The notes below the pieces were generated by a model, which saw only the letters and a program-made list of their open reading frames with translations, searched no databases and had not been told where the DNA came from. 64,000 nt of DNA from Methanococcus voltae (GTDB lineage: Archaea > AGJL01 > Methanococci > Methanococcales > Methanococcaceae): NCBI RefSeq assembly GCF_017875395.1, contig NZ_JAGGMO010000005.1:1-64000 (forward strand), given 5' to 3'. The position numbers and the translations under genes were made by a program. This document shows positions 38,330 through 63,035 of the stretch, one piece after another. The first letter of the stretch is position 1; every line of letters begins with the position of its first letter.

Positions 38330-38992
38330 ATGAAAGCTGTTGATAAAATTTACTGGGCATACTATAATCAAAAATCGGGTCATGTTGGATTTGAAAAAGA
38401 TCAACTTCATTATTTTAGTGAGTTAAGGGAACTTACGGGGCTATCCCATAGTTCCTTGCAGAATTCACTTTCTAAAATGGAAAAAGATGGATTTATTGAA
38501 AAAATTAAGGAAAAATCAAACACTTATTACAAATTAACAAATAATAAGTTTAATTATCTGAAATTTATTGGTTTTGACATCAATAAATTTGAAAATCTAA
38601 ATCGGAATGTTAAAATGCCTTTAAAAAGGTTTATGGAAGAATGCCCCAAAAACATTGATTTTATAATTCTTTTTGGTTCTGCTTCTCGAGGGGAAGAGCA
38701 AAGGAATAGCGACATAGATTTATTGGTCGTACTTAGTAGTTTTAAAAACGATGAACTTCAAAAATTATATGACGAAGAAATGAGAAGTTTAATTGAAAAA
38801 GCAAAACGAAAAGCCAATTCTAAATCATTATACCCTTTAAGTATATTCTATACGGATTACGATAACTACATCAAATATACAAATTTAGACGGTACAGCGG
38901 GTAGGTATGTTAATGTAGATTACGTACTCGAACAGGCAAAAAAAACAGGTTTTCCGATATTTGGACATCAAAAATACTACGGAATATTTTAA
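38330..38992 (+). CDS. HTH-fused MNT nucleotidyltransferase, probable antitoxin
   Basis: 220 residues. Residues ~1-85 form a winged helix-turn-helix (LTGLSHSSLQNSLSKMEKDGFIEKIKEKSNTYYKL); residues ~105-210 are a minimal nucleotidyltransferase with GSASRGEEQRNSDIDLLVV (GS...DxD). In HEPN/MNT toxin-antitoxin systems the MNT member neutralises the HEPN RNase by nucleotide addition, and that arrangement is seen here, the HEPN gene starting 15 bases later. The N-terminal HTH and the paired operators ahead suggest self-repression. ATG 38330 has no strong ribosome site (TTTACAGT), consistent with a near-leaderless mRNA. Confidence 0.85.
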   Translation: MKAVDKIYWAYYNQKSGHVGFEKDQLHYFSELRELTGLSHSSLQNSLSKMEKDGFIEKIKEKSNTYYKLTNNKFNYLKFIGFDINKFENLNRNVKMPLKRFMEECPKNIDFIILFGSASRGEEQRNSDIDLLVVLSSFKNDELQKLYDEEMRSLIEKAKRKANSKSLYPLSIFYTDYDNYIKYTNLDGTAGRYVNVDYVLEQAKKTGFPIFGHQKYYGIF

Positions 38993-39007
38993 TTTTGAGG
39001 GGTTATC

Positions 39008-39547
39008 ATGTTTATAATTACAAATTACTTTGAAAATGAAAAAGAATTAAATTATAGATTGAGGAAATACAAGCGTGAGAAAGTAATTGGAAAATTTAGT
39101 AATGCGAAAATGCTAGTAAATGCCCATGTTGAAAAAACAAATCACAATTTGGAGTTTGTAAACCATCTTATGGAAGATGAAAGCTCTGAATTTAATGATT
39201 GGAAGATAACTGGGTTATATTATGCTGTTTACCATGCAAGTCTTGCATTAGTATGTTTAAAAGGTTATATATCTAAAAATCACACTGCCACGCTTTTATT
39301 TTTAATAAAATACTATTCGGATAAATTAAATTCTGACGATATACATTTTATTGATGAATTAGCCCTTAATAAAGAAGATTTGTTATTCTATGCGGATTTA
39401 AAATCTGAACGTCAAAAAGCTAGTTACTCCACTACATTAAATTTTTCAAATAAAACTGTTGAAGAATTGCGATTTAAATCGATTGAATACATAAATAAAG
39501 TTGAAGAAATCATTGAAAATTCCAAAAAAAGTCAAAATAAGATTTAA
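39008..39547 (+). CDS. HEPN-domain protein, probable toxin partner
   Basis: 179 residues, mostly helical. WKITGLYYAVYHASLALVCLKG is the HEPN core helix; TATLLFLIKYY and DLLFYADLKSERQKASYS follow. The RX4-6H RNase motif is not textbook: near residue 132 R-Q-K-A-S-Y appears as R-x4-Y, a form seen in HEPN proteins paired with MNT enzymes, where the Tyr can be the modified residue. GAGGGG six bases before ATG 39008 is a strong ribosome site, much stronger than that of the upstream MNT gene. Role as an RNA-cutting toxin is inferred from the pairing. Confidence 0.8.
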   Translation: MFIITNYFENEKELNYRLRKYKREKVIGKFSNAKMLVNAHVEKTNHNLEFVNHLMEDESSEFNDWKITGLYYAVYHASLALVCLKGYISKNHTATLLFLIKYYSDKLNSDDIHFIDELALNKEDLLFYADLKSERQKASYSTTLNFSNKTVEELRFKSIEYINKVEEIIENSKKSQNKI

Positions 39548-39633: not shown

Positions 39634-40518
39634 TTAGTATCCTAATTTTTCTAATAATGGTTTAACTGAAACTTGGTGAACGTCTAAAGCTAAATCTTTA
39701 GGATCCATTCCCATAGCTAAACCTAAGAGTTGTGATAAGTGGAGAACTGGTATGTTGTATTCGTTACCCATTTTTTCTTTGATTTCAACTTGTCCTCTGT
39801 CGAATTGCAATTGGCAGAATGGACATACGTTTACAATACAGTCAGCGCCTGCTTCAACCATATTTTCTATTTTTTCGTTGGTCATGCTTAAAGCTAAGTC
39901 TAATTCTTTAGCTCTTACACCACCACCTGCACCACAGCACATCATTTTGTCTTTGTATGCAACTGATTTAGCGCCTGTAGCTTCTACTAATTCATCTAAC
40001 ATGGTTGGTCTTTCTGCTGCACCTAAACCTTTTGCATCGGTTGGTTTTAAGAAGTGGCAACCGTAGTGTACACCTACGTTTATAGCACCTAAGTCTTTAA
40101 CAACTTTTTCAGCGATAGCTTCAGGACCTAATTCTTTGGAGATTAATTCTGCAAAGTGTCTTACGTGTGTAGTTCCTTTATATTCTTTGTCAACTTTTGC
40201 TAATTGTTCGTTCACAAATGCTAAAGCTTCTTTGTTATCATGTAACATGTGCGCTGCTTCGTATAATGAACCGTAGCATCCGTTACATACTGTTACGATA
40301 TCTGTTCCTTTTTGTTCTGCAAGTACTAAGTTTCTTGCTGCTAATGTAACCCATGTTTTTTGATCGAATGAACCAAATACCCCTGGAGCTGGACAGCATG
40401 AAGCTCCTTCAAGGTCTACTAATTCAACGCCTAATTTATCCATTACTGTTCTTGTAGCTGCTTCCACACCTGCGTATCTGTTTGGCATGATACAACCGAG
40501 GAAAAATGCGTATTTCAT
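39634..40518 (-). CDS. hdrB: Heterodisulfide reductase subunit B, copy 1
   Basis: 294 residues. Catalytic subunit that reduces the CoM-S-S-CoB heterodisulfide in the last step of methanogenesis. Two CCG domains are complete: [26 protein letters not shown] and then [33 protein letters not shown], which hold the two noncubane [4Fe-4S] clusters. Downstream of hdrC copy 1 with a 141-base gap. The hdrA gene is not in the window. A related second copy is at 55093. Confidence 0.96.
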
Positions 40519-40659: not shown

Positions 40660-41217
40660 TTATTCTTTTAATGATTTTGTTTCCCAATCAAATCCAATTA
40701 ATTCGTCAAATTTCAATTCTTTAACTAATGTTTGGATTTCGTTCATGTCCTTTTCACTGAATTGTGCAATTGGAGCTTTTTCTGATAATCCGATTGATTT
40801 TCTTAATTTTGCTGTGTCAGCATTTGCTGGTACTGCGTGTCCTGCTTTTAAAACGTATAAAGCGGTCATTTTGTGAGCTTTTGCCATGTTGCCTTTTTGA
40901 GCTGCTAAGTTTCTTAATGATTTGATAACTTCTGTAACTTTAACGTCTCTTGGACATCTTTCGAAGCATGTGTAGCATGTTACACATTTCCAGATATCGT
41001 CGCTGTCTAAAACTTCTTGAACACCCATTAAAGCTTGTCTAATAACTTTTCTTGTTCTGTATGCTGTTCTTCTACCACTTGGGCAGCTTCCTGTACATGT
41101 ACCACATTGGTAGCATGCTTTAAATGATGCAGTTACATCTTCCCCAGGTACTGGGTCTCCTGCTGCTATGATTTTGTCTGCAAATTTCTTATCTGTTCCA
41201 GTTTCCATGTTTATCAT
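40660..41217 (-). CDS. hdrC: Heterodisulfide reductase subunit C, copy 1
   Basis: 185 residues from ATG 41217 with GAGGTGTAATATT ahead (an in-frame GTG at 41235 overlaps this site). Carries two ferredoxin-type [4Fe-4S] motifs, [14 protein letters not shown] and CVTCYTCFERCPRD, that pass electrons from HdrA to HdrB. No membrane segment, so this is the soluble HdrABC type of hydrogenotrophic methanogens. First gene of the hdrCB unit. A 22-base palindrome is centred 73 bases upstream. Confidence 0.95.
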   Translation of the reverse strand: MINMETGTDKKFADKIIAAGDPVPGEDVTASFKACYQCGTCTGSCPSGRRTAYRTRKVIRQALMGVQEVLDSDDIWKCVTCYTCFERCPRDVKVTEVIKSLRNLAAQKGNMAKAHKMTALYVLKAGHAVPANADTAKLRKSIGLSEKAPIAQFSEKDMNEIQTLVKELKFDELIGFDWETKSLKE

Positions 41218-41279
41218 AATATTACACCTCGACACTATATAGGCATATATATAATATATGAGTTGATGTTTACATTCAT

Positions 41280-41301
41280 GTATTATACAATTGTATAATA
41301 C
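41280..41301. promoter_or_regulatory. 22-base perfect palindrome upstream of hdrC copy 1
   Basis: TATTATACAATTGTATAATA plus one further pair (G at 41280, C at 41301) reads the same on both strands. Its centre is 73.5 bases before the hdrC ATG, above the TATA-like ATATATTATATATAT. A near-identical element occurs at the same distance before hdrC copy 2. Confidence 0.7.
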
Positions 41302-41679: not shown

Positions 41680-41787
41680 ATGGCAAAAGGTAAAAAAAGC
41701 AATGATAAAGGGGCAAACGCACCAAAACAAGAAAACACACAAAAAGGAAAATCCTCTAAAAAATCAGCTGGAAAAGGTAAAAAATAG
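41680..41787 (+). CDS. Very small basic protein, 35 aa
   Basis: Begins MAKGKKSNDKGANAPKQ and ends SKKSAGKGKK; about one third Lys with Gly, Ser, Asn and no hydrophobic core, so it is probably unfolded alone and bound to nucleic acid or ribosomes. A ribosome site (GAAGTGATTTAA), a TATA box and a leader hairpin upstream mark it as a real, separately expressed gene, although it is far below usual gene length. No known family recognised. Confidence 0.7.
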   Translation: MAKGKKSNDKGANAPKQENTQKGKSSKKSAGKGKK

Positions 41788-54178: not shown

Positions 54179-54291
54179 ATTTATTTTTATTGGGTTATTA
54201 AATTTATTAATATCTAATTTAATATTATTTATACCTATACTCAATTACATAAATACATTTGTATATTTAATCTTTAGTCCGAGGGGTTTTC

Positions 54292-54315
54292 GTAATATTA
54301 TACAGTTGTATTACA
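54292..54315. promoter_or_regulatory. Palindromic element upstream of hdrC copy 2
   Basis: TATTATACAGTTGTATTACA at 54296-54315 matches the palindrome before hdrC copy 1 at most positions, and arms GTAATA (54292) and TATTAC (54309) form an outer inverted repeat. Its centre is 72.5 bases before the hdrC ATG. A TATA-like GTATATAAATA follows at about 54330. Confidence 0.6.
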
Positions 54316-54377
54316 TCCGAACTTAGTAACAGTATATAAATAAGGCTTAAAAAAAATATATAAATAGGGGTGAAATA

Positions 54378-54959
54378 ATGGTTTTAAAATCCAATGAATA
54401 CAATAAAGAGTTTTCAGAAGCAATTGTGAATGCAGGAATTGATTTTTTGGGAGAAGACAAAAGTAATTCATTTAAAAGATGTTACCAATGCGGTACCTGT
54501 ACGGGAGCTTGCCCAAGTGGTAGGATAACAGGATTTAGGACAAGAAAAATAATTAGGCAGGCTCTATTGGGTGATGAAGACTTGCTATCTAGTGATGACT
54601 TATGGATGTGTACAACTTGTTACGAATGTTACGAGAAATGTCCAAGGGAAGTTAAAATAACAGATTTAATCAAAGTAATTAGAAACTTAGCATCAGAAAA
54701 AGGATATATTGCAGAACCGCACCGGAAAACGTCACTTTATGTTTTCAAAACAGGTCATGCTGTACCAGTAAATGCTGAAATGAAAAAAGCAAGACTTGAT
54801 TTGGGATTAACAGAAATTCCGCCAACAACCCACAAATATCCAGAAGCTTTACAAATGATTAAAGATATTATGGGCGATTTGAATTTCTGTAAAAAAGTAG
54901 GTATCTGTGAAGAAACAGGGGAATTAACAGAACTAGATTTAAAATATGCGAGCGAATAA
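54378..54959 (+). CDS. hdrC: Heterodisulfide reductase subunit C, copy 2
   Basis: 193 residues. Two [4Fe-4S] motifs, [14 protein letters not shown] and [14 protein letters not shown], as in copy 1 at 40660, with the same [13 protein letters not shown] and [12 protein letters not shown] context. It differs mostly in the last ~40 residues, including two extra Cys ([11 protein letters not shown]). GGGGTGAAATA precedes ATG 54378. First gene of a second hdrCB unit, 133 bases before hdrB. Confidence 0.95.
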
Positions 54960-55092: not shown

Positions 55093-56013
55093 ATGGAGAA
55101 TGCCAGAAATAAGGATATGAAAGACGAATATGTATTTTTCCTTGGTTGTATTGCACCTAATCGATATCCGGGTATCGAAAGTGCGACATACAAAGCTCTT
55201 GAAAAATTAGATTTAAAGTTAAAACCATTTGAACAAGCGTCTTGTTGTCCAGCTCCGGGGGTATTTGGTTCATTTGACTTGATGACTTGGTTAACAATTG
55301 CAGCAAGAAACATTGTACTCGCGGAACAGGAAGGTTTAGACATTCTAACGATTTGCAATGGATGCTATGGTTCTTTATTTGAAGCTGACCACATTTTAAA
55401 AGACAACGAAAAAGCAAGAACAAAAGTAAATGAAGTATTGGGAAAGCACGGTTTAGAATACAAAGGTACTACAAACGTTAGACACTTGACCGAGGTGCTT
55501 TACTTTGATTTAGGTACTGAATACATCGCCGATAGGGTAGAAAATCCATTAGACGCAAATGTAGCTGTCCACTACGGTTGCCACTACTTAAAACCTACCG
55601 ATGTAAAACATATTGAAAGTTCAGAGGTTCCTAAATCACTTGATGGTCTTGTTGAAGCTATAGGTGCTACATCAATCCCATATCGTGATAAAAACATGTG
55701 TTGCGGTGCAGGTGGTGGTGTAAGGGCTAGAAACCCAGAAGTTGCTCTCCAAATGTCTGAAACGAAAATCAAAAATATGATTGCTGCAGGAGCAGATTGT
55801 GTAACTGAAGTATGTCCATTCTGCCACTTACAATTTGATAGGGGACAAATTGAAATCGAGGAAACGTTCAAAAGACAGTATAATTTACCAGTTATACATT
55901 ATTCACAGCTTTTAGGATTGGCTATGAATATGTCACCAAAAGATGTGGCTCTTGATTTGCACTTTAAATCTGCTGATCCACTATTAAAAAAATTAGGATA
56001 TATTGATGAATAA
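55093..56013 (+). CDS. hdrB: Heterodisulfide reductase subunit B, copy 2
   Basis: 306 residues. Same two CCG domains as copy 1: [59 protein letters not shown]. It has a charged N-terminal extension of about 12 residues ([12 protein letters not shown]) missing in copy 1. GAGGGGATTTTA precedes ATG 55093. Together with hdrC copy 2 it would give an alternative HdrBC module for the shared HdrA; which one is used under which condition cannot be read here. Confidence 0.96.
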
Positions 56014-57322: not shown

Positions 57323-57794
57323 AATATACACCGTGAAAAGTTTAAATTTGAATTAAGTTGTATTAAGTTGTATTAAGTTGAATTAATTTGAAATTATATT
57401 TTTTGCCGTAAATTATATAAATCAATAAATTTTAAGGTAAAAGAAAATTAATAATTTAAATTAGATACTATGATTTATAGTTTTAAAAGTACTAATAATA
57501 TTTATGATACAATTGTATATTTATTATTCATACATTGTAAATATTATCGAATAGTATATAATAAAAATTATTTTAATTTTCAATAAATTTTACGTATGAA
57601 TACTATAATATAAATACTTTAATACTCAATAAACGATTAGATACGATAAGTTAATCAATTTTACATCGATTTTTTTAATAAAACGTTAAGATAATATAGA
57701 TGGGATTAATAAATTAAATAAGGATATTAAATTAATTATTATGCAATACTTACCGATTATTAGTAATTGTAAAAATTAGTAAAATGGTGATAAT
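57323..57794. other. Divergent promoter region, antiporter / dphB
   Basis: 472 AT-rich bases. Near the antiporter start TTAAGTTGTA-like units are repeated (57353-57375). At 57507-57518 is a perfect 12-base palindrome ATACAATTGTAT, the same core as the element before hdrC copy 1, but far from either start. No open frame or RNA gene seen. Confidence 0.4.
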
Positions 57795-62246: not shown

Positions 62247-63035
62247 TTAATCGTTAAATTCTAATTCCGCATCTAAAATTGTGTAACTTATTTTGTTTTT
62301 ATCGATTTCATTTAGTACATTTTCAGTCATTTTTCCAGTTACAAATGCAATAACGTCGCAACCTCGTGTACACGCATTTGTAATACCACTTGACACACCA
62401 AATCTTATATCTGGCTTTATATCTAATTTATTTAACAATACGGCACTAACAGTCCCCATCATTGCGATAACTGCGTCAGGATTCTCTTCCAATATTTTTA
62501 AGACAAATTCTACATTTACCGCACTTGTACCGCCTTTTACCTTAGGAGGAACTTTTAAAACTATTACTTTTCCTTTTCTAACGTCTACGTAGCCTTCAAG
62601 TTCATGTATTGATATATCGTCGCCTTTTCTACCATCTTCATAAACAATAGCGGACGCTTCAGTAACATTTGTTTTAGATATATACATTAAACCCTTGTGC
62701 ATGTAAAGATATACTTTATCCCCTTTCTTTACATCTTCATTTGCTATTGCAGGCCAGGTGTCCTTGTATCTGTATAAATTCTGGTTTACTTCTGAAAGGT
62801 AGTCTTTAAAATCTCCAATCCACAATTTAAGGTGTTCCATACCCATATCTGTAATTACGTATTCTCCCCTACCTCTTGATTTGATAAATCCGTTTTTTGC
62901 TAAGTTTCTAACATGTTCTGAAACTCCTTGAACGGTTATACCCAAAACTTCGGCAATTTCTTTTTGTTTTATATGAGGTTGCTTTCTTACGATTTCAGAA
63001 AGTATTTGAAATTCTGTAATATTTCTTTTTTTCAT
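62247..63035 (-). CDS. Winged-helix regulator with C-terminal ligand-type domain
   Basis: 262 residues from ATG 63035 with GGTGTGAAA ahead; an upstream in-frame TTG adds nine residues. Residues ~1-70 are a winged helix (QKEIAEVLGITVQGVSEHVRNLAKNGFIKSRGRGEYVITDMG). Residues ~75-160 (VKKGDKVYLYMHKGLMYISK) are beta-rich, and the C-terminal ~100 (NPDAVIAMMGTVSAVLLNKLDIKPDIRFGVSSGITNACTRGCDVIAFVTGK) look like a small-molecule or metal sensor with two Cys. Convergent with moeA and divergent from the binding-lipoprotein gene, so it could control that ABC transporter. Ligand unknown. Confidence 0.78.
   Translation of the reverse strand: MKKRNITEFQILSEIVRKQPHIKQKEIAEVLGITVQGVSEHVRNLAKNGFIKSRGRGEYVITDMGMEHLKLWIGDFKDYLSEVNQNLYRYKDTWPAIANEDVKKGDKVYLYMHKGLMYISKTNVTEASAIVYEDGRKGDDISIHELEGYVDVRKGKVIVLKVPPKVKGGTSAVNVEFVLKILEENPDAVIAMMGTVSAVLLNKLDIKPDIRFGVSSGITNACTRGCDVIAFVTGKMTENVLNEIDKNKISYTILDAELEFND

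Follow-up and report, generated by a model that had tools for sequence, protein, structure and literature searches.

A palindromic element, TATTATACA-N2-TGTATAATA, was found before an hdrC gene in 34 of 36 Methanococcales genomes, where it is conserved, symmetrical, spaced at a near-fixed distance from a TATA-like box and nearly private to hdrC. We propose that it is probably the operator of a putative homodimeric transcription factor specific to the hdrCB operon or operons of the Methanococcales, and that its effect is most likely activating. The methanogenic cycle is closed by heterodisulfide reductase (Hdr), which also drives flavin-based electron bifurcation. The 20-bp site, being order-wide and nearly private to hdrCB, offers a ready bait for the regulator in the tractable M. 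maripaludis or M. voltae.

The window, that is, the whole 64-kb stretch of M. voltae DNA that was analysed, contains two such sites (Table 1). Site 1 is identical to its own reverse complement and forms a perfect 22-bp palindrome centred at 41290.5, 73.5 bp from the ATG of hdrC1. Site 2, the centre of which is 72.5 bp from the ATG of hdrC2, is an imperfect copy of site 1: the two are identical at 17 of 20 positions, and site 2 is self-palindromic at just 14 of 20. An earlier note on this DNA had described the palindrome, its partner and both distances, and the recomputed coordinates agreed with all of them. The extra core upstream of site 2 showed the same letters in two to three near relatives. 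Elsewhere in the window, a tiny lysine-rich ORF (MAKGKKSNDKGANAPKQENTQKGKSSKKSAGKGKK, 41680-41784, + strand) lies upstream of hdrC1, and the region next to hdrB1 (38330-39547) contains a helix-turn-helix/nucleotidyltransferase ORF and, after it, a HEPN-like ORF; by eye, the two resemble an MNT-HEPN toxin-antitoxin pair.

Table 1. Positions in the 64-kb window of the two sites, their promoters and the genes discussed
Feature	Position	Strand	Basis or remark
Site 1, perfect palindrome GTATTATACAATTGTATAATAC before hdrC1	41280..41301	.	Conserved in 34/36 Methanococcales genomes
TATA-like stretch, hdrC1 promoter, exact box ambiguous	41243..41262	-	Sequence; clustering of boxes in relatives
hdrC1 (type-1 HdrC), ATG at 41217	40660..41217	-	Homologue search and tree
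hdrB1, downstream of hdrC1	39634..40518	-	ORF list; named by CX31-38CCG-type motifs in sequence
Site 2 TATTATACAGTTGTATTACA before hdrC2	54296..54315	+	Retained in G005 and G006
Possible extra half-strength site, core ATACATTTGTAT	54253..54264	+	47 bp upstream of site 2
TATA-like box TATATAAA of hdrC2	54333..54340	+	Sequence
hdrC2 (type-2 HdrC), ATG at 54378	54378..54959	+	Homologue search and tree
hdrB2, downstream of hdrC2	55093..56013	+	ORF list; named from sequence
Winged-helix/DUF7839 protein, weak regulator candidate	62247..63035	-	Orthologue adjoins hdrC1-hdrB1 in five related genomes

The hdrC homologues and their upstream regions were then compared among the 36 Methanococcales genomes. 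All 22 genomes of the window's family had the element before an hdrC, either unchanged or altered at one to a few positions, and so did 12 of the 14 genomes of the Methanocaldococcaceae. In 11 of these 12 it took the form TATTWTACA-N2-TGTCNAATA or close to it, with the same layout and distance and a changed right half (mostly TGTCWAATA), while the remaining one, G034, had the unchanged form. The two genomes in which the element was missing were G024, which has only a type-2 hdrC, and G030, in which no hdrC was found. The centre of the element was mostly 71.5-73.5 bp from the chosen hdrC start codon. Both half-sites were conserved and the 2-bp middle was free to vary; most half-site columns contained 1.0-2.0 bits of information, versus about 0.1-0.75 in the flanks. 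Among six lineages, an identity of at least 5/6 was seen in 17 of the 20 palindrome columns, versus 6 of 45 upstream and 11 of 45 downstream. The hdrC upstream regions of Methanobacteriaceae, Methanomassiliicoccales, Lokiarchaeota and others gave nothing above shuffled sequence. The earlier note, which had called for this comparison of relatives and named a lack of conservation as the result that would count against it, had claimed a shared, constrained site above the TATA box; order-wide conservation, near-fixed spacing and near-privacy to hdrC strongly support that claim.

We also examined the layout of the promoters. The TATA-like boxes (TWTATATA), which were assigned by consensus alone, clustered 17-29 bp past the end of the palindrome, and almost none were nearer. 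A box matching at least 7 of 8 positions was present in most hdrC promoters and none in some, in a scoring of the TATA-like boxes alone. The element resembles an archaeal upstream activating site both in being a conserved inverted repeat before the hdrC genes and in lying upstream of BRE/TATA at near-fixed spacing, as judged from consensus TATA boxes. Archaeal activators usually bind upstream of BRE/TATA (PMC5512572; PMC6737238). A second AT-rich near-palindrome, similar to CATTATTAATTATGATAAAT, was seen further upstream of hdrC at L032, L033, L035, L039, L040, L042 and L050-L054. It may belong to the promoter of an EhbN-like hydrogenase gene, because that gene is the divergent neighbour in many of the genomes that bear it. 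A sequence resembling CATTATTAATTATGATAAAT was also present before the second hdrC copies of genus g2 (L055, L056 and L059).

Next, the distribution of the element between the hdrC paralogues was determined. In the hdrC tree, the type-1 clade had the element in 22 of 22 cases. In the type-2 clade it was present in the main hdrC copy of genus g2 (loci named Methanothermococcus); among type-2 second copies it was full or partial in Methanococcus and g3 and absent in g4, g2 and the Methanocaldococcaceae. The maripaludis-type hdrC2 retained the promoter-proximal half TGTATAATA, and its distal half was lost or weakened. In M. voltae A3, the accessions of HdrC/HdrB and of HdrC2/HdrB2 are about a dozen numbers apart, which resembles the arrangement of the genes in the window and agrees with its being M. 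voltae or a close relative. Published proteomics of strain A3 showed that HdrC was 3.2-fold higher with Fe(II)/HS-, and that with FeS2 HdrC2 was 7.1-fold and HdrB2 6.4-fold higher (PMC9431491). In M. maripaludis, H2 limitation caused a slight rise of HdrB2/HdrC2 (PMC2723118). Since HdrC and HdrC2 shift oppositely with the Fe/S source, a shared site does not mean a shared direction of control, and a simple activator common to both genes cannot be a complete explanation. Of the earlier proposal of a common regulator, perhaps an activator, the shared constrained site stands, but identical action on both genes would not explain the opposite changes. The same opposite response provides a physiological condition for probing control. 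It is also in line with a different reading of the same operator, in which a repressor or dual regulator binds and the quality or context of the site sets the sign, so that one paralogue goes down and the other up, for example with Fe/S supply. The unequal symmetry of sites 1 and 2 and the extra core at hdrC2 would fit this reading. However, the site lies upstream of BRE/TATA and does not overlap the TATA-like box, whereas repressors usually cover BRE/TATA or lie downstream of it (PMC5512572), and we consider a repressor or dual regulator unlikely, though a serious contender.

The search was then extended to whole genomes. In the window's family, exact TATTATACNNNNGTATWATA occurred almost exclusively before hdrC, with one other exact site (G009:C1:9408). 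In the Methanocaldococcaceae, TATTWTACANNTGTCNAATA with at most one mismatch was found at the hdrC of each of the 12 genomes that have a type-1 gene and in three other places, and a control pattern gave one match. A profile, R1, was built from 33 sites, and its scores were taken from the best 150 candidates per genome, so weak sites could escape. Among these candidates, the top match was hdrC in nearly all genomes, and the scores in the window's genome were 25 for hdrC1, 18.2 for hdrC2, 17.0 for the intergenic position C1:436925 and below 14 for the rest. Lower-ranked R1 sites were located within genes, in a CRISPR spacer or at diverse loci that share no theme. Weaker matches inside leuS, a CODH-type gene, a threonine-synthase-like gene and others, in the CRISPR spacer and at scattered loci were rejected as regulon members. 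No good match to the element was present in the hydrogenase-gene loci of the window's genome or, as would be looked for in an Fe (DtxR/Fur-type) regulon, in the feoB locus (L285). The genome search suggested in the earlier note pointed to a wider methanogenesis regulon, but none emerged: pattern and profile searches of 22-36 genomes gave no coherent second target, and the element was essentially confined to hdrC. This lack of a regulon, together with order-wide conservation at probably highly expressed genes, would suit an architectural or anti-roadblock element, bound by a general or chromatin-type factor that would hold the hdrC promoter open without regulating it. Such a general factor should have many sites, but the element is almost private to hdrC, and we regard this explanation as quite improbable.

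Two kinds of look-alike were noted in the course of these searches. A CRISPR spacer of G019 (C1, about 1419140-1419160; L169 / L078) contains a perfect hdrC-type palindrome, CATTATACAATTGTATAATACA, which possibly came from foreign DNA carrying the same operator; viral contigs contained no exact match to it. Palindromes with a similar core follow an S27e-like small ribosomal-type gene and precede an eIF2-alpha-like gene at G000:C1:458976, G005:C1:51720 and G006:C1:490447. The one in G006 is part of a longer inverted repeat, and these palindromes are probably an RNA hairpin or terminator.

A perfect palindrome could also fold as a hairpin in the hdrC leader, and we therefore considered an RNA element. 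In the longer hdrC leaders (G008, G020 and G021), the palindrome stayed near the TATA-like box, which is weak in G020, and the ATG was moved away. The palindrome thus follows the TATA-like box and not the ATG, and would therefore act at the promoter and not in mRNA. Moreover, the TATA-like box comes after the element, and in the Methanocaldococcaceae perfect pairing is interrupted (TTATACA versus TGTCTAA) with no compensating changes, which makes an RNA hairpin very improbable. From this arrangement, the element appears to belong to the hdrC promoter, upstream of BRE/TATA. In G008 (L033), a GGGAGCTCCGGAGCTCC repeat was seen between the TATA-like box and the ATG of the extended leader, and the extension looks like an insertion. 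The gene on the other side is divergent in several genomes (e.g. the EhbN-like hydrogenase gene), and the element could be its promoter or operator; however, the gene upstream of hdrC differs in identity and orientation among genomes, and in G010 a co-directional gene extends to within a few bases of the element, so that this assignment is already contradicted and just as improbable as the hairpin.

The chance expectation within one genome was estimated by shuffling. The window contained no perfect 22-bp palindrome besides site 1; among 20 dinucleotide-shuffled windows, two contained a single one each and the other 18 contained none. In the 140 bp before hdrC2, a sequence agreeing with site 1 at 17/20 positions arose in 21 of 20,000 shuffles (~0.1%), a figure obtained before the matching distance is counted. 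With up to 3 mismatches, the window gave 6 strand-matches at 3 places versus 0.52 expected. Exact TTATACARTTGTATWA, a pattern derived from the two hdrC sites, was found in the 1.9-Mb genome at just those two, and at up to 2 mismatches it was not enriched across the whole genome (75 strand-matches versus 96 for the reversed control). Because loose matches were no commoner than the reversed control, one genome cannot prove the element, and the proof is comparative; the single-genome evidence is suggestive only. A look-alike spacer site in the window (57503-57522) was rejected, as G006 does not retain it. Chance likeness in AT-rich spacers would agree with these common loose matches and with the unretained spacer site, but it is already contradicted by the near-fixed position across two families and by the 15 promoters tested, in each of which the observed score was reached in 0-21 of 3000 shuffles, and its probability is negligible. 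The motif therefore did not prove to occur at random frequency, the other outcome that would have told against the earlier note: the exact pattern is nearly private to hdrC, though loose matches in a single genome are unenriched.

The operator reading is favoured because the half-sites are conserved around a free 2-bp middle, as in the site of a dimer; symmetry and position would likewise suggest binding by one regulator and activation. A dimer would bind the two TATTATACA half-sites, the centres of which are 11 bp apart (about one helical turn), and would sit upstream of the TATA box, roughly 30-40 bp from its centre, where it would most likely activate transcription by helping TBP or TFB onto the promoter. 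Both hdrC paralogues carry this site in Methanococcus and a neighbouring genus, and the degenerate half at hdrC2 and the extra upstream core could let one factor, or one plus a second, set the paralogues differently. It is unusual for a transcription factor to have one target operon only, and the element is missing from G024 and G030 and from many second hdrC copies; these points count against a dedicated operator. A more specific version, in which an order-wide regulator with hdrCB as its single target matches Hdr to thiol or Fe-S status and switches between the copies where two exist, is possible but on balance doubtful. As for the factor itself, a winged-helix/DUF7839 gene adjoins hdrC1-hdrB1 in G001-G004 and G019. 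Thirty-four of the 36 genomes encode a single copy of its protein. These include both genomes without the element, and its profile therefore does not single it out. No conserved element was found before its gene that would suggest autoregulation, and we think it improbable that this protein is the regulator.

Finally, the element was compared with known archaeal regulators. We take the NrpR operator to be GGAA-N6-TTCC and the MsvR box to be of the TTCG-N10 type; by inspection, neither is present in the conserved half-site TATTATACA. In the open-licence papers covered by a literature search, no hdrCB regulator of the Methanococcales came to light. Elements of this kind are known; the site, its near single-gene scope and the protein that would bind it appear undescribed in the papers covered. 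According to an excerpt of the HrsM study, this LysR-type selenium regulator of Methanococcus controls genes of this energy metabolism, among them hydrogenase genes and the Cys-type hdrA, and the Sec/Cys switch genes named in that excerpt do not include hdrC or hdrB (PMC11097638). Unlike the proposed activator site, HrsM represses and binds the frc-vhc intergenic region. A site of the HrsM regulon was rejected, since no match above 10 bits was found in L091-L100, versus 25 at hdrC1 and 18.2 at hdrC2, although the vhu promoter may fall outside these loci. The sites of the activator EarA at the fla promoter of M. maripaludis are, like the hdrC element, in Methanococcus and a short way upstream of BRE (PMC5512572), but they are four 6-bp repeats serving motility genes, whereas the hdrC element is one 20-bp palindrome. 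An EarA site, with several 6-bp repeats directly upstream of BRE, was rejected, as the single palindrome lies at least 17 bp from the TATA-like box. Ptr2 of Methanocaldococcus jannaschii, which activates by recruiting TBP, has sites upstream of BRE in the same archaeal order (PMC5512572); in contrast to the hdrC element, the targets known for Ptr2 are the genes rubredoxin 2 and fdxA (PMC5512572; PMC6737238). Tar (TK0271) of Thermococcus differs from the hdrC element in sequence and spacing and controls three operons in place of essentially one, but its site, TGGACA-N8-TGTCCA, is likewise a palindrome upstream of BRE/TATA, and it is bound by an activator (PMC6737238).
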